DNA of 64,000 bases from a virus: the IMG/VR virus record IMGVR_UViG_3300023049_000574, positions 1 through 64,000 of that record. One strand, written 5' to 3'. The notes below the pieces were generated by a model, which searched no databases, was not told where the DNA came from, and was given only the letters and a program-made list of their open reading frames with translations. This document shows positions 1 through 12,590 of the stretch, piece by piece. Position numbers and translations under genes: made by a program. The first letter of the stretch is position 1. Each line of letters opens with the position of its first letter.

Positions 1-2
1 TA

Positions 3-206
3 AAATTTGATAGAGTGAAAGATATAAACGGAATTGAAATAACAGAAGGGTGTGAATTACAATACAGTAGTTATACGCCAAGTGAGAATGTAGAAAAAGG
101 TAAAGTTTACACTCATAAAAAATATGGCGGATTGTGGGTAAATAGTGTGCCTGTATCGTTATTGAATTCTCACGGATTAGATTACAGAAAATTGAAAGTG
201 TTGTAG
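3..206 (+). CDS. Cassette-borne small hypothetical protein (probably 5' partial)
   Basis: A short reading frame ends at TAG 204-206 and stays open to the left edge. A GTG at 15 is the only start inside the window, so the true start may lie outside. The visible protein is about 63-67 residues, soluble and mixed-charge, with a DINGIEITEGCELQY stretch that resembles the openings of small beta-rich phage and bacterial proteins. I do not recognise a family. The attC-like hairpin begins three bases after its stop, which is the arrangement expected of an integron cassette gene. No phage-type TTAATATATA box precedes what is visible, and the context suggests acquisition from a bacterium. Confidence 0.6.
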   Translation, partial: KFDRVKDINGIEITEGCELQYSSYTPSENVEKGKVYTHKKYGGLWVNSVPVSLLNSHGLDYRKLKVL

Positions 207-208
207 TA

Positions 209-349
209 GCATTACACACAACGTTTTGTGTATGGTTTGAAAGCCTATAACTAAAACTAATAAATGGCACTAAATTATGTTTACTGCCGAAACATAGAAA
301 ATAAACAATAACCTTAATTGGCTTTTTAACTATACACGTTGTTATAGCC
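209..349 (+). repeat. attC-like recombination site 1
   Basis: An imperfect inverted repeat of about 140 bases. The left arm (209-244) contains ACACAACG and TGTATGGTTTGAAAGCC; the right arm (320-349) contains GGCTTTTTAACTATACACG followed by TTGTTATAGCC. The inner arms (TGTAT.GTT..AAAGCC against GGCTTT..AAC.ATACA) pair with few mismatches, and ACAACG pairs with CGTTGT. A nested hairpin TATGTTT/AAACATA lies at 276-296. Length, position directly after a stop codon, two-tier stem and a GTT core at 341-343 fit an integron attC folded from one strand. Closely similar repeats are, from memory, common in Flavobacteriia. Confidence 0.65.
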
Positions 350-370
350 AGTTATTTAATAAACGAAAAA

Positions 371-592
371 ATGAAAGACTTGAAATTATTTATTTGGAAA
401 GATGTATTGACTGACTATACAAGTGGAATTGCTTTTGCATTAGCCGAAAATGCAGAAGAAGCAAGAAAAATAATTTTTGCAAAGTTTGAAAAAGAAGAAC
501 AGTATTTAAGTGACACACTAAAAGCTGATTTGTCTGACGAACCTGAAATAGTAGATACTAAAGCTGGTTTCTATGTTTGGGGTGGGGGCTAA
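371..592 (+). CDS. Cassette-borne hypothetical protein ending in VWGGG
   Basis: A 73-residue acidic protein with no signal peptide or membrane segment. It starts MKDLKLFIWKDVLTDYTSG and ends GFYVWGGG; from memory, small proteins with a similar start and a VVWGGG-type end occur widely in bacterial genomes and cassettes, but I cannot name a family. It is the only gene between two attC-like sites. Its 5' boundary (GTTATAGCC, 341-349) is the exact reverse complement of the GGCTATAAC at 595-603 after its stop, as expected when one circular cassette supplied both. The codon context differs from the phage genes to the right. Function unknown. Confidence 0.75.
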   Translation: MKDLKLFIWKDVLTDYTSGIAFALAENAEEARKIIFAKFEKEEQYLSDTLKADLSDEPEIVDTKAGFYVWGGG

Positions 593-594
593 TT

Positions 595-628
595 GGCTAT
601 AACTATTATGTATATACACCTTTTTGTA
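595..628 (+). repeat. Short or degenerate attC-like site 2
   Basis: GGCTATAAC at 595-603 is the perfect reverse complement of the junction at 341-349. It is followed by TATTATGTATATACACC, which resembles a much-shortened attC with the same TATACAC element as site 1. It sits between the cassette stop and the recombinase start. It could be a contracted attC, a truncated site, or the recombinase-proximal attachment site. Extent is approximate. Confidence 0.45.
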
Positions 629-655
629 AAACAATAATAATCAATTAATTACACT

Positions 656-1459
656 ATGTTAAATCAGAAAATTGTTAAGATCTGTGAACAAAAGTTTACA
701 TATCTTAACTATTCAAGTAGAACCAAAGATACATACATATTTTATATTAAACAATTTGTAAAGTGGTGTGGCGATAAAAGAGTAACCCATATTAGTTCGA
801 AAGATTTTCAATCATATCTTGATAATTATAAATTCACTTCTATATCACAACAAAATCAAGTAATAAATGCAATTAGATTTCTATATAAATTTGGTCTTAA
901 TAAAAAATACGATAAAGTGTCTTTTGGAAGACCAAAGAAAGAAAACAATCTACCAAAAGTTATTGATGGGGAGTCAATAAAAAAGAAACTACTCGATATT
1001 AAGAACCTAAAACATAAAACTATATTAACACTTACCTATTCAATAGGGCTTCGTGTTTCAGAGGTAGTTAACTTAAAAATAGAAAACATTGACTCCAACC
1101 GAATGTTGATCTATATCAAAAATGCTAAAGGAAGAAAAGATAGAATCGTACCACTATCTGAATATGTGTTGAAATTATTGAGGGAATATTGGAAAGAATA
1201 TAAACCTAAAATATATTTATTCAATGGTCAAAATTCTCTTCAATATTCGGTTAGTAGTTGTCAAAAAATATATAAGAAATATATTGATATTAATTCCTCT
1301 ATCCACACATTGAGACATTCATCATTTACTAATATGTTGGAGGGTGGTTGTGATCTGAGAGTAATACAGAAAATAGCGGGGCATTCATCAACTAAAACCA
1401 CTGAGTTATATACACATGTGTCAAATAAAATATTAAGTAATGTTGTCTTACCTATCTAA
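656..1459 (+). CDS. Tyrosine recombinase, Xer/phage-integrase type
   Basis: A 267-residue site-specific recombinase that would cut and rejoin DNA through a covalent phosphotyrosine. Residues 1-90 form the SAM-like core-binding domain; the catalytic domain follows. All catalytic residues are visible: R133 (GLRVSE), K158 (KGRKDR), H217 and R220 (HTLR), H243 (AGHSS) and nucleophile Y252 (YTHVS). The R133-H217 spacing of 84 residues leaves no room for the extra helix that marks integron integrases (IntI), so it is Xer-like by architecture. It lies immediately downstream of the cassette array on the same strand, the obvious candidate to move those cassettes. It could instead be a conventional phage integrase or dimer-resolution enzyme. 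Confidence 0.9.
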   Translation: MLNQKIVKICEQKFTYLNYSSRTKDTYIFYIKQFVKWCGDKRVTHISSKDFQSYLDNYKFTSISQQNQVINAIRFLYKFGLNKKYDKVSFGRPKKENNLPKVIDGESIKKKLLDIKNLKHKTILTLTYSIGLRVSEVVNLKIENIDSNRMLIYIKNAKGRKDRIVPLSEYVLKLLREYWKEYKPKIYLFNGQNSLQYSVSSCQKIYKKYIDINSSIHTLRHSSFTNMLEGGCDLRVIQKIAGHSSTKTTELYTHVSNKILSNVVLPI

Positions 1460-7073: not shown

Positions 7074-9797
7074 ATGAATTTATCGGGTAATATAGGATTT
7101 AAAGAAATTTATTCAGTGGATGATGTTACATGGGACTCTGTTTTCGCAGAAGATCGTGGTAGAAAGAAAATATATGTAGGTTCAGGAAGACCTATTTTTG
7201 AAGGTAGTAACCCAACCGAAGATAACACTCCTATAATATATAAAACTAACTATGATTTAACATATGATCCATTAGAAGATGTTTATACTTTACCAACAGG
7301 ATACGCTGCCGATTATAACTCAGAAGAGTGTTATCTAACAGAAGATAATAATCACATACTAATAAATGTTCGGATTCTTGATGAGTTTATAGGAGCGTCT
7401 ACGGTAAATGGTTGGAGAAATTATATAGCGAAAGTTACTATTAACCATGATAGCTTTACAGGATCTACTACATCTTTCATAGATCTAAATCATGGTGGTG
7501 GTCCAGGCGTAACTCAATATCTTTATGAAATAGATAACGAAGTATATGTAGTAAAGGGTTCAGATCCAAGAGATATCAATAATCTATACCCCGTGACTAT
7601 AGTAGATTATATAGCTTCGACAGTATCATCTACCACATTTTCTGTACCTGAGGTGAATTATTATAGTAAAACTAAAATAAGCGATACTGAATATGTATAC
7701 GGAACAGGGTTTAGGGATAGTAGTTTAATGTATAAACACGCATTAATTAAGATAGATACTGAAAATAAAACATATGCAACAAGTTCTAATATTATAGAAG
7801 GAAGAGGATTATCTTATATTAGAGAAGTAGGGGATGACTTATATGAATTTGTTTATACGAATAGAGATGATGATACATTAAACATTAGTTATACTGATTT
7901 TAATTTAAATGTTATAAGTAATATAAAATCCGAACCTAATACTGTATTTGAAACAGGTGGTGGTGGTTTTAATACTATGTTAAAGATTAATAATTTATTT
8001 TATTTATCAAATTTTAGTGGTAATGTAAGTGCTTTCATAGCTGAACAAAAAGACATAACGAAACCAATTTTTTCGGGTGATCTAACTTTATCTATAAAAT
8101 CTTCCGTAAATATAGGAGCATTAAATAGCGGTAGACATTTAGCTGTAGATACAAATAAAGGTTTCGCTTATATATTTTCAGGAGAGATGCAATCAGGGGT
8201 TGGTACACAATCTTGTATATTAAGGAGATATGATTTAGATCTTAATATAATAGAAAGTATTACTTTAACTGATATACGAGCAGCAGAACAACACAACAGA
8301 CCGTTTTTTGATTTCGAACGAAATAAATTAATATGTTTTCAATATGCTCAGGATTCTTATACAGGAGAAACTACGACATTTAATAGAAGTTATAGGTTTT
8401 TTGAAGTGGCTCTTGATAGTGGATCATATAGTGATTTAGGTCGTGCTACACCATCAGCCCCACTAGAAAGCGATAGTGATTTATATACAATAGTATCATA
8501 TGATTTTGATAATCAATTATGTTATTACCAAAAAGGAGAAACAAATGTTTCGAGTACTTACTTAAAAAGAGATTTTGACTTAGATACAATAACATCAAGT
8601 ACCATAGCTACTGTGAATGGGGATACATATCCTATTTATTTCGATAGAAAAGATTTAGTATACTATCACTCACTCGATAATAGTTATAGTGGAACTAGGG
8701 TTAATATGTTAGCTACTTTTGATTACTCTACTATGACATTAGTAGGCACGTCTTCGAATACATGGATTAGTGGGAGATCATTAAGACCCGCTAGATTGGA
8801 TTATTTTACTAATACATTTAATCCCAATGCTTTTAAAAATATTTATTATACACCTAGTCCTACTTCCCTGTCAACATTTTATTCCGATATGAATTTAAAC
8901 ACAGGGGGGTTAACTGCTAGTTATAATAGTCCTAGTTTAATTGGTTCTAATTACCCCACAGTAGATAGTAGAGAGAACTATTATTTATTAGGAAGTTCAT
9001 ATAGAAATGTTTTAACGTTTGAGGAAACACAACAAACTAATAATAGAGCTAGAGTACAAAAAAATGATAATTTAGAATTATTTAGGATAGATGCTGATAA
9101 TATTAAGACTGATATAACTAATAGGATAAGTAGAATAAAAAACTTATCCCCACAAGGAAACGATTTAATACAACCTGATTATAACAGAAGACTTAGGTAT
9201 GTTGAGAACCCTGCTTCTCCTATCAACTTACCTGTGATATCTACTGATATTGGGTTTCGTGAGTTTATGAGTTGTAGTATTGACTTATTTAAATTTACTA
9301 AACCGAATAATTCTTTTTGGATTCTATTCTTAATTAAAAACGACACAAATAACCAAGTTCGTTTATTTACTGACCGTGAAATTCCTGCGGATAGGGCGCA
9401 GTTTATTGTAGGTCTGTTCTTTGATCAAGTTCTTTTAACTATTAAAAGGGGATATGGATACGAGTTCAACCCCTCTATTTCAGTCAACCCTCCTGGTGGG
9501 ATCACAGACTTTCACTTTTATGCAGTAAGATTTGAGCCATACACAGAAGGTGAATTGTATATATGTAACACCGATGGTACTTTATTCGGCTACACTGCTT
9601 CTTTTTCTGATTCGGGTAATCCATATTTGGGATATAAATTATTCTCAGATGATACGACAGGTTATGCATATGAGTTAAGAGAATTACAGATTATAGATAC
9701 ATCTGATTTAACATATAGTGAAGAAATAACTGAAGTAAACAGTAGAATGAATGATATGGCAAGTGGTACAGGTTTTACTTGGAGTAACATTACTTAA
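7074..9797 (+). CDS. Fibre/adhesin-like protein 1 (propeller-like plus lectin-like C-terminus)
   Basis: A 907-residue beta-rich protein, very probably part of the receptor-binding or fibre apparatus. It opens MNLSGNIGF, shared with the next fibre genes. Residues 20-320 and 335-650 contain repeated short strands with Asp/Asn/Tyr-rich turns, consistent with two beta-propeller-like modules separated by EQKDITKPIFSGD near residue 322. Residues about 690-907 look like a LamG/concanavalin-like jelly roll (FWILFLIK, HFYAVRFEP, ELYICNTDG). It ends TGFTWSNIT, as does its neighbour. There is no signal peptide, so it is a virion or cytosolic protein rather than a secreted one. Family assignment is by composition and repeats only. 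Confidence 0.7.
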   Translation: MNLSGNIGFKEIYSVDDVTWDSVFAEDRGRKKIYVGSGRPIFEGSNPTEDNTPIIYKTNYDLTYDPLEDVYTLPTGYAADYNSEECYLTEDNNHILINVRILDEFIGASTVNGWRNYIAKVTINHDSFTGSTTSFIDLNHGGGPGVTQYLYEIDNEVYVVKGSDPRDINNLYPVTIVDYIASTVSSTTFSVPEVNYYSKTKISDTEYVYGTGFRDSSLMYKHALIKIDTENKTYATSSNIIEGRGLSYIREVGDDLYEFVYTNRDDDTLNISYTDFNLNVISNIKSEPNTVFETGGGGFNTMLKINNLFYLSNFSGNVSAFIAEQKDITKPIFSGDLTLSIKSSVNIGALNSGRHLAVDTNKGFAYIFSGEMQSGVGTQSCILRRYDLDLNIIESITLTDIRAAEQHNRPFFDFERNKLICFQYAQDSYTGETTTFNRSYRFFEVALDSGSYSDLGRATPSAPLESDSDLYTIVSYDFDNQLCYYQKGETNVSSTYLKRDFDLDTITSSTIATVNGDTYPIYFDRKDLVYYHSLDNSYSGTRVNMLATFDYSTMTLVGTSSNTWISGRSLRPARLDYFTNTFNPNAFKNIYYTPSPTSLSTFYSDMNLNTGGLTASYNSPSLIGSNYPTVDSRENYYLLGSSYRNVLTFEETQQTNNRARVQKNDNLELFRIDADNIKTDITNRISRIKNLSPQGNDLIQPDYNRRLRYVENPASPINLPVISTDIGFREFMSCSIDLFKFTKPNNSFWILFLIKNDTNNQVRLFTDREIPADRAQFIVGLFFDQVLLTIKRGYGYEFNPSISVNPPGGITDFHFYAVRFEPYTEGELYICNTDGTLFGYTASFSDSGNPYLGYKLFSDDTTGYAYELRELQIIDTSDLTYSEEITEVNSRMNDMASGTGFTWSNIT

Positions 9798-9812: not shown

Positions 9813-12590
9813 ATGAATGTTTCAGGTAATACTTTTCTTAATACAGTTTCCTTTGAAGATAGGAATAGTTCGGGTGCTTTTCAAGTACCTAATTATAAAG
9901 TATATGATAGAAATTATAGTTGGTATTGGGATATCGGGGTTAATTTTGCCCCACCAAACGAGTTGATAATATATGACATAGATGCTCAGAATATATATCA
10001 AACAGTTAGCTTAACCGCTAGTTATCTAACCTATTTTAGAAAATCTAATGTATATTTTGACGAAGATTTAACTTTCGTCACCACATTAAGAAGAATAGAT
10101 GATGGTAACGCTATTCATTATGTGAAAGTTGAATTAGACCCTAATAATAATTTTGAGGCTACTATAACCGACTTAGGTAATGCCACCGCATCTAGCTCAA
10201 ATGGTATAACTGTTATATATGGTTATGATAAAAAAGAAGAAGATCTTTATATATGTACAACAGGATCAAGTGGTAACTTTGCTAATGGTGGTAGAGGAAC
10301 TAGGTTTATGATATACAATACTATAAGTGAAACTACTACTTTTTATAGTCAAGATTGGAGAGGCGCAAGTTTTAGTATAGTAGGTGCAGGTGGAGTATTT
10401 AGATTTAGGGGTTATGATATAGATTTTAGGGGTGATCAAGAATTATTTTTCGCAGGAAGAGATCAAGAAGCAGACACAACTCCTTCTTTAGCTAGGTATA
10501 GCTATAAAACAGATACAATGACATATAGCACTGATTATATACAGGAGACTGCGCCATATGGCAATATACTCAACAACAGTTTATATTATTCAAAGAGGGA
10601 GGAAGCAGTAATGATATCATATGCAAGTTGGAATAACCCAAATGATATAATTAATCTAAGGAAATATTCCAAAACTGATTTTTCTATATTAGATGAAATC
10701 AAAAGTTTTACAAACCCCCATTTCAGTTACGTGATTCTTATCAATTATGATGAAAGTAGAAACACCTTAGAAACAATAGGAGATATTTCTTTCGGTAGTA
10801 GAAGATATATTTATGAATTAGGATTCGAACAAGAAAATAATACTATTCCAATAGTTTCAGGAGAAAATAAATATACTTCTGAGTACACTAATACTGTTAG
10901 TCGTTCTAACTCTTCAGATGTGATTGAGCATATGATAGATCCCGAAAGAGAAGTAATATATTTATCTATAAGCTCTAATAACGAAAACGCTCCAATATTA
11001 ATTGAGAGATATGACTTTGATTTTAATTATTTAGATAGTTGGAGCGAATCTAATTATTTATTAGGAATGGAAAGAAGAACACAACCCAATTTAAATTATG
11101 ATAATACTAAAATATTAATAGGTGGGAAAGATTCTAATATAGACGGAACGGGTAATGGGGGTATATTTAGAACAGGTTACATAGATATAGATTTTGATGA
11201 TTTTTCTAATAGTATAATCACTTTATCAGACCAAAGAGAAAGCCCTATACCTAATATACAAACACAATTTGAGACGATTGATCATAATTCTGATTATTAT
11301 TTTTTCACAAAAAGTTCAATAGATGTAACAGCCTTAGATATAGAATTCCATAGGATGGACTTCCCCTCTTTAACTAACTCTGTTAGTTATGATACTAATA
11401 TAAGAGGTAAAGTTATTGGTTCGGAGGTAGATAGAAAGAATAATACGATTAAGTCAGTAGTAGTGACCAATGGTAATAACATAGAATTTTTCCAATATGA
11501 TTTTGACGCTATGACATTTTCTAGATCAGCAACGGGGGTTTCAATTAGTTATATAACAGGTGCTGATAATACGGATTCGCAAATATTTGTAACCGATATA
11601 AGAGATGATTCATTTGATATCGCATATTTACAAGACGGTGATACTAATTTTAAAGTAGAAACCTTTGACTATGATATGAATAGTTATAGTAATCCAATCG
11701 AATTTGATATTACTAATACAGTTGGTATTGATAGAATAAGCGTAGAGCCATATAATAATTCTAGTAAAGATTTATTATTTGTTAGAAACACTACATGGGA
11801 TAAATTAGAGTTAACACAAAGTGATAACACTAGACCATTTATACAAAATTATACAGCATCTATATTCCGAAATTATTCTGCTTCTAATGTGCAAACAGTT
11901 GGTAGTGATAATAGAATACTTAAAATATATGATTCAGCAAGAGGTATAAATTTAATTCAACCTAGTCCAAGAATAGCGGGTACATTAATTGAATCCGATC
12001 CTAATTTTAACGGTGAACCATCTATGGATATGGACGGTGAACAAAATAAATTAGATTTTGGACTTAGTTATAGAACTGCAGTGTATAAGGGAAGTTTCGA
12101 TAATAGAAACCAAGATAAATCTTGGTATTTATTTATAGCAAGGTGTCCATACTCAAATAAGCTTAGTAGATTTTTTGATTTAAATGATGGATCAGCATAC
12201 CTTACTGTCGATAGAGCTAATACTCGTGTAATTTTTGTTTCAGGTTCACATAACGTCATATGGACTTCTTCTGTTCTAAGTCATGATTTTGGTGACACTA
12301 CTATATATGCTATCAAACAAGTAGATGGAGAAATGGGTAAACTTTGGATAAATGGAGGCACTGTTATAGAAAATGATAGTGGTACAGATGGTACATCGTC
12401 GGTATTTAAATCAGCCAATAGACATCCTCATCAAACATTTTTCGGTGGGACGGATCGTGCGGTTGTAATTTCTGATTTTATAGCACTTGATACAAGTGAT
12501 TTAAACACAACAGAAGAATATAATTTAGTTAATGGTCTAATGAACCCACTTGCTACTAAATACGGCTTAACGTGGTCTAATATAACTTAA
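9813..12590 (+). CDS. Fibre/adhesin-like protein 2
   Basis: A 925-residue paralogue of the preceding gene: MNVSGNTFL start, two propeller-like modules separated by linkers near residues 336 (EQENNTIPIVSGE) and 665 (TQSDNTRPFI), and a lectin-like C-terminal domain (about 690-925) ending GLTWSNIT. The first module closely matches the second module of the 12811 gene: both contain NF/NYGNG-type turns, a DWRG/NWRN element and an FRFRG/YRFRD strand. This shows domain-level exchange rather than simple gene duplication. Likely virion adhesin; receptor unknown. Confidence 0.7.
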   Translation: MNVSGNTFLNTVSFEDRNSSGAFQVPNYKVYDRNYSWYWDIGVNFAPPNELIIYDIDAQNIYQTVSLTASYLTYFRKSNVYFDEDLTFVTTLRRIDDGNAIHYVKVELDPNNNFEATITDLGNATASSSNGITVIYGYDKKEEDLYICTTGSSGNFANGGRGTRFMIYNTISETTTFYSQDWRGASFSIVGAGGVFRFRGYDIDFRGDQELFFAGRDQEADTTPSLARYSYKTDTMTYSTDYIQETAPYGNILNNSLYYSKREEAVMISYASWNNPNDIINLRKYSKTDFSILDEIKSFTNPHFSYVILINYDESRNTLETIGDISFGSRRYIYELGFEQENNTIPIVSGENKYTSEYTNTVSRSNSSDVIEHMIDPEREVIYLSISSNNENAPILIERYDFDFNYLDSWSESNYLLGMERRTQPNLNYDNTKILIGGKDSNIDGTGNGGIFRTGYIDIDFDDFSNSIITLSDQRESPIPNIQTQFETIDHNSDYYFFTKSSIDVTALDIEFHRMDFPSLTNSVSYDTNIRGKVIGSEVDRKNNTIKSVVVTNGNNIEFFQYDFDAMTFSRSATGVSISYITGADNTDSQIFVTDIRDDSFDIAYLQDGDTNFKVETFDYDMNSYSNPIEFDITNTVGIDRISVEPYNNSSKDLLFVRNTTWDKLELTQSDNTRPFIQNYTASIFRNYSASNVQTVGSDNRILKIYDSARGINLIQPSPRIAGTLIESDPNFNGEPSMDMDGEQNKLDFGLSYRTAVYKGSFDNRNQDKSWYLFIARCPYSNKLSRFFDLNDGSAYLTVDRANTRVIFVSGSHNVIWTSSVLSHDFGDTTIYAIKQVDGEMGKLWINGGTVIENDSGTDGTSSVFKSANRHPHQTFFGGTDRAVVISDFIALDTSDLNTTEEYNLVNGLMNPLATKYGLTWSNIT

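Follow-up and report, generated by a model that had tools for sequence, protein, structure and literature searches.

A probable phage-borne integron-like cassette system beside a tyrosine recombinase without the I2 insertion

The window studied here, which comprises bases 1-64000 of a 145,521-bp IMG/VR virus record and begins at record base 1, probably opens with the part of a phage-encoded integron-like cassette system that adjoins the recombinase. From the comparison of related sequences, the proposal that this system works like an integron appears well supported: an attI-like site lies beside the recombinase gene, and tandem cassettes, each composed of a gene and an attC, have been exchanged between relatives. 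Integrons are defined by IntI, and the system is not an IntI integron, as defining features of these elements (the IntI family, the I2 insertion, extrahelical bases) were looked for and not found. It may arguably be considered a new class of integron-like system with a putative recombinase activity. That the phage enzyme acts on these sites is suggested by its position, its orientation and its co-occurrence with them.

Anatomy of the locus and structure of its sites

The original prediction described two small co-oriented open reading frames followed by a complete tyrosine recombinase on the same strand, and this arrangement was confirmed, all the features lying on the plus strand. The gene of cassette 1 (3/15-206) is cut by the record start, with 67 aa visible, and no relative of it was found among the viral contigs searched. 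Because the window opens at record base 1, the array is truncated by the contig end. Between the two reading frames lies a long imperfect inverted repeat, an attC-type site (216-349), whose core is CAAC 219-222 / GTTA 341-344 and whose stem pairs 228-245 with 320-337, G239.T326 standing at the place of the wobble conserved in the family. The gene of cassette 2 (ORF 2, 371-592) encodes a 73-aa protein of the phage family phrog_34232, and its stop codon lies 7 bases upstream of the TAAC core that follows. The unit of attC, leader and gene would span 222-602, its ends being placed by analogy with the TAAC crossovers of relatives, and represents the only complete cassette of the window. The recombinase gene (656-1459) codes for 267 aa, including R133, K158, H217, R220, H243 and Y252, and has no IntI I2 insertion. 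A second attC-like site had been proposed after ORF 2; it proved to be a copy (TAACTATTATGTATA, 600-614) of a conserved attI-like sequence with the family consensus TAACTATTATATATA, and homology with the nearest relative (L118) begins here.

The attC-type nature of the first site was established with a covariance model, R1, whose 31 source sites all came from other phages and none from the window. The held-out window site gave 57.4 bits (E=2.7e-12) with the filters disabled; elsewhere in the 3 kb scanned the score did not exceed 10.7 bits. With default filters R1 missed the site, probably because its left core is CAAC and that of the family is TAAC; a first scan for TAAC...GTTA missed it as well. 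Rfam at the gathering score found nothing in the window, and a plain single-site folding test did not single out the window attC (z -0.28 and -1.10). The folding of its two strands (-13.0 vs -13.7) showed no strand bias, and this, together with the variant core, suggests that the site may be a weak copy. Its right arm and leader also occur before different genes in three other phage loci (L030-L032), of which L030 carries 12 R1 sites, and the same arm is present in L029.

Scans of viral contigs gave relatives whose recombinases are mostly 49-82% identical to that of the window, and upstream of which stand tandem small genes separated by hairpin sites. At E<=0.01, R1 detected 325 sites distributed over 71 phage loci. 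In the analysis set (E<=0.001, 67 phage loci, mirror hits merged) the matches comprised 241 upstream on the plus strand, 6 upstream on the minus strand, which are mirror hits of plus-strand sites, 11 downstream on the plus strand and 0 downstream on the minus strand. The order noted at first, an array upstream of a co-oriented recombinase, recurs in these phages (241 upstream vs 11 downstream). Among whole phage records 24 of 25 contained R1 matches, and these were clustered. Two objections that had been foreseen, a lack of further attC-like sites and a lack of any covariance-model match, are answered by the additional sites in related loci and whole records and by the detection of the held-out site. 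In L137 (G009, 103-107 kb and 116-121 kb) and L179 more attC clusters were observed on the same strand several kb downstream of the recombinase, possibly second arrays.

Pairing in each site falls into two blocks: the TAAC/GTTA core, which is invariant, and a stem of 19 bp whose sequence is free and whose pairing is kept. In the 31 aligned sites 97.5% of the cells were paired, compensatory changes occurred in 17 of the 23 pairs, and the covariation score was 0.75 vs 0.16 for shuffled and <=0.17 for slid alignments, statistics that are partly circular because these sites had been chosen for pairing. Conserved extrahelical or bulged bases were sought in the attC sites and none was found; instead, stem pair 13 is a G.T wobble in 254 of the 256 phage sites and 108 of the 110 bacterial sites, as counted on matches of R1, a model that contains this pair. 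The complementary strand would carry a C.A mismatch at that position. An additional base next to the wobble, placed there by the model alignment in about a quarter of the sites, seems to be an artefact of that alignment. Of 223 phage sites, 207 gave the better fold on the coding strand. AAC/GTT cores, an inner stem and a variable loop, all features of attC, are present, and the opposite strand reads YTAACAA...CGTTRR in the canonical attC order, so that the canonical bottom strand has its counterpart in the coding strand of the phage sites. In 63 of the 67 phage loci an attI-like TAAC...TATAT block precedes the recombinase.

The genes neighbouring the window locus are phage-like and include a 1684-aa protein with phage families, a phage-type ClpB-like protease family, thymidylate synthase, ribonucleotide reductase and an SbcD-like nuclease. 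T4-type Gp23 capsid genes were found in 9 and Terminase_6N in 10 of 15 related-phage records, the record of the window being counted among the 15 and itself matching neither family. Two adjacent large proteins (7074-9797 and 9813-12590; 907 and 925 aa) end alike (...GFTWSNIT / ...GLTWSNIT) and are perhaps tandem paralogues of a fibre-like protein. Near the other end of the record another attC (R1, 40.5 bits) is located at 145340-145407 (L033:19341-19408) on the minus strand, together with minus-strand small genes; since it is opposite in strand to the left-end array, a simple circular continuation is no explanation. A 368-aa minus-strand product at record 141078-142184 (L033:15079-16185) resembles by eye the tRNA thiolase MnmA, which is unusual in a phage.

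Exchange and content of the cassettes

Comparison of closely related phages pointed to a site-specific exchange. The pairs L151/L152 (100% identical over 2.65 kb), L156/L158 (99.84% over 10.8 kb) and L160/L161 (99.98% over 10.85 kb) carry wholly different cassettes left of a shared TAAC, and in all three the identical DNA spans the recombinase and the region downstream and starts precisely at the attI-like site's TAAC. Near-identical phages with different cassettes and a junction at TAAC argue that cassettes were swapped site-specifically, and they dispose of the objection that relatives might all share identical cassettes. In L149 and L151 the last cassette is common and the divergence starts at the TAACG core of the next attC. 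Taken together, these breakpoints place the crossovers in or beside TAAC, both at attI-like sites and at attC. Nearly identical attC sequences were also found before different genes.

The cassette proteins are very diverse, 225 of the 270 ORFs being singletons. Only 1 of 242 clusters was shared between phage and bacterial cassettes, and its 'bacterial' member came from a locus whose recombinase groups with those of phages. The orientation of the genes relative to attC is opposite in the two sets (180:21 in phages vs 16:53 in bacterial arrays), and the bacterial cassettes are longer, with a median longest ORF of 209 vs 94 aa. The cassettes thus look phage-specific rather than host-derived, and a host origin was rejected on gene orientation and protein clusters. 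Accordingly, the original prediction stands as far as it proposed a phage integron-like array with a Xer-like, non-IntI enzyme; the capture of cassettes from bacteria, which it also proposed, is not supported, given the orientation, the single shared cluster and the phage family of ORF 2.

An ATG lies inside 92 of 256 phage sites, its frame continuing across the right arm into the gene that follows, and in most of the others an ATG comes within 150 bases (median 35). In view of these start codons in or near attC, gene and site appear to move as one unit with the attC in front. In the 92 sites the start codon of the following gene, with some 20 N-terminal residues, is encoded by the loop and right arm of the attC (e.g. 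L006:3568-3701, L126, L127), and N-terminal types such as ...LNISDVSSS and ...QLGIGGVS recur.

The recombinase and its bacterial counterparts

The recombinase matched PF00589 with E=9e-32, and its catalytic residues R-K-H-R-H-Y are invariant in 18 relatives. It scored below the cut-offs of all the subfamily models considered, namely IntI (TIGR02249, 144 bits vs 265), XerD (146.6 vs 329.6), XerC (132.6 vs 335) and XerA (NF040815, 170.5 vs 220), the last being the closest NCBIfam model. The spacing between the catalytic R and H is 84 residues in the phages, 84-95 in the enzymes of bacterial arrays, 95-96 in XerC/D and 131 in IntI; IntI4 (2a3v) aligns in two pieces, with the I2 insertion left out, and the solved relatives are 4a8e and 5hxy. 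An AlphaFold model of moderate quality (pLDDT 80.9, pTM 0.57) gave IntI4 and XerA as top Foldseek matches. In a quick maximum-likelihood tree of 153 proteins, 20 true IntI formed one clade (support 100) free of phage rows and XerC/D a separate clade (support 100), while the phage enzymes, together with five rows from bacterial bins, formed a group (support 99) nested among I2-less, mostly Bacteroidota enzymes. The earlier statement that the enzyme, with only 84 residues from R133 to H217, lacks the extra IntI helix and is not a classical IntI is consistent with spacing, model score and tree. The deep branches are weak, so that the tree does not order I2-less ancestry against loss of I2. The recombinases of L038, L039, L040, L051 and L105, which derive from bacterial bins or genomes and fall in the phage group, perhaps belong to phage contigs or prophages.

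Alignment of the recombinase also brought 80 genome loci, mostly of Bacteroidota. In the bacterial loci R1 found 110 sites, 67 of them downstream on the minus strand and 39 upstream on the plus strand, and never downstream on the plus strand. The orientation of these sites relative to the recombinase-proximal end is the same as in the phages, and the bacterial cassette genes are mostly in the canonical orientation. R1 sites occurred in 108 of 198 sampled Bacteroidota genomes vs 2 of 150 Pseudomonadota genomes, and one of these two is a metagenome bin with a contig carrying a recombinase of the phage group. Eight R1 sites were counted in G233, a Methylophaga bin and the source of L039, and almost none in other Pseudomonadota. 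Bacteroidota arrays often adjoin I2-less recombinases, e.g. in L053, L094, L097, L102 and G026-G035. True IntI was present in 37 of 99 Bacteroidota genomes; the R1 matches at true-IntI loci, the flanks of which are short, were weak (best 32 bits), and true IntI was on this basis judged unlikely to be the cognate enzyme.

Proposed mechanism, rival explanations and relation to known systems

In the proposed mechanism the recombinase would act on each attC hairpin in the form of the folded coding strand, would cleave it within 5'-TAAC, and would insert or excise cassettes at the attI-like site in the way that IntI uses attI. The choice of strand, the covalent chemistry and a replication-dependent resolution are taken over from integrons. 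The reaction would proceed without the I2 insertion and without extrahelical bases, and the G.T wobble may mark the strand instead. Transcription of the cassettes would start from a promoter at the array end distal to the recombinase and proceed in the direction of that gene; the attC RNA would form a 5' leader and, for about a third of the cassettes, would also hold the start codon. The purpose may be a fast turnover of small accessory phage genes, perhaps for host takeover or anti-defence.

A duplex site-specific system acting on short TAAC sites, in which the inverted repeats are terminators or leader hairpins with no role in recombination, is rather unlikely. Xer enzymes normally use duplex sites, the I2 insertion and conserved extrahelical bases are lacking, and the start codons held by a third of the sites point to an RNA or coding role too; yet a duplex mechanism needs neither a stem of free sequence with its pairing kept, nor a fixed position of the G.T wobble, nor the constant orientation of the sites seen in phages and bacteria. 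It is less probable still that a host enzyme, either true IntI or an I2-less Bacteroidota recombinase, makes the arrays, that phages are only carriers and that the phage recombinase serves e.g. dimer resolution. Bacteroidota genomes hold both kinds of enzyme, the I2-less ones beside arrays of the same site type, and phage records with attC clusters and no integrase are known (PMC9892861). Against this, some 50-80 bases separate the last cassette boundary from the start of the phage recombinase gene, and the conserved block upstream of that gene sets in precisely at the crossover core; moreover, the phage recombinases form the well-supported group described above, and the true-IntI loci match R1 poorly.

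That homologous recombination between repeated hairpins produced the mosaics of phage genes, with the recombinase as a mere neighbour, is very improbable: near-identical attC sequences before different genes would permit such an exchange, but the cassette ends swapped at the attI-like site have no more than the few TAAC core bases in common, a stretch too short for this kind of recombination, and the junctions are base-exact in several independent pairs. The remaining explanation, host DNA joined to phage DNA in assembly, can hardly be credited and was rejected. The feature does lie at a contig end, as it does in several relatives; the arrangement nevertheless recurs in many contigs, often in the interior, including contigs of 100-362 kb, and capsid and terminase genes accompany it in many records, which makes a join unlikely. 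In G010, sites at both contig ends lie on one strand, as in a circular map. The phage-encoded integron-like system thus remains the preferred reading.

With integrons (IntI/attI/attC), both class 1 and chromosomal, the system has in common the attI-like site beside the recombinase, an array in which every gene has its hairpin site, YTAACAA...CGTTRR on one strand, a base-exact core exchange, a strand-asymmetric site and the diversity of cassettes. It differs in having a recombinase without I2, below the IntI cut-off (144 vs 265 bits), a G.T wobble in place of extrahelical bases, start codons in attC and carriage by large phages. The sites are oriented relative to the recombinase-proximal end as in canonical integrons and the cassette genes are flipped, being on the opposite strand and directed towards the recombinase. 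Qi et al. 2023 reported integron components from 21 phages, detected with IntegronFinder and HattCI+Infernal, tools that look for IntI and canonical attC, and 5 of 6 tested attC worked with IntI1 (PMC9892861). Those phage integrons likewise place attC and cassettes in phage genomes; unlike them, the present system is characterized by a separate group of recombinases and a distinct type of site. With XerA, XerC and XerD the enzyme shares the lack of I2, XerA being the closest model, but it is separate from the Bacteroidota XerC/D in the tree and adjoins a cassette array. The integration of CTX-phi by XerCD at a folded single-strand site also combines a Xer-type enzyme without I2 and a hairpin without extrahelical bases (PMC4792948), although CTX-phi lacks cassettes and does not itself encode a recombinase. 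In the mainly open-access journal literature searched, no prior account of a class of integrons without I2 was found for either phages or Bacteroidota.

Escudero et al. 2016 described a chicken-and-egg problem, in which the I2 domain and attC each seem unselectable without the other, and speculated on a viral origin of integrons (PMC4792948). It is tempting to suggest, as a tentative and somewhat doubtful possibility, that I2-less integrons, as a class widespread in Bacteroidota and large phages, are a living example of, or sister to, a pre-IntI intermediate, in which hairpin attC sites recombine with no need of the I2 domain and the G.T wobble sets the strand; large phages would be the vehicle and possibly the origin of integrons. 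The combination of attC-like hairpins with an I2-less recombinase offers a form in which the I2/attC paradox becomes testable. The data further suggest that integron-like arrays are common in Bacteroidota, a phylum thought to be almost free of integrons, IntegronFinder 2.0 having found them nearly absent there (PMC9024848). They also suggest that large phages own a dedicated device for the exchange of small genes, which would help to explain the hypervariable regions of their genomes.
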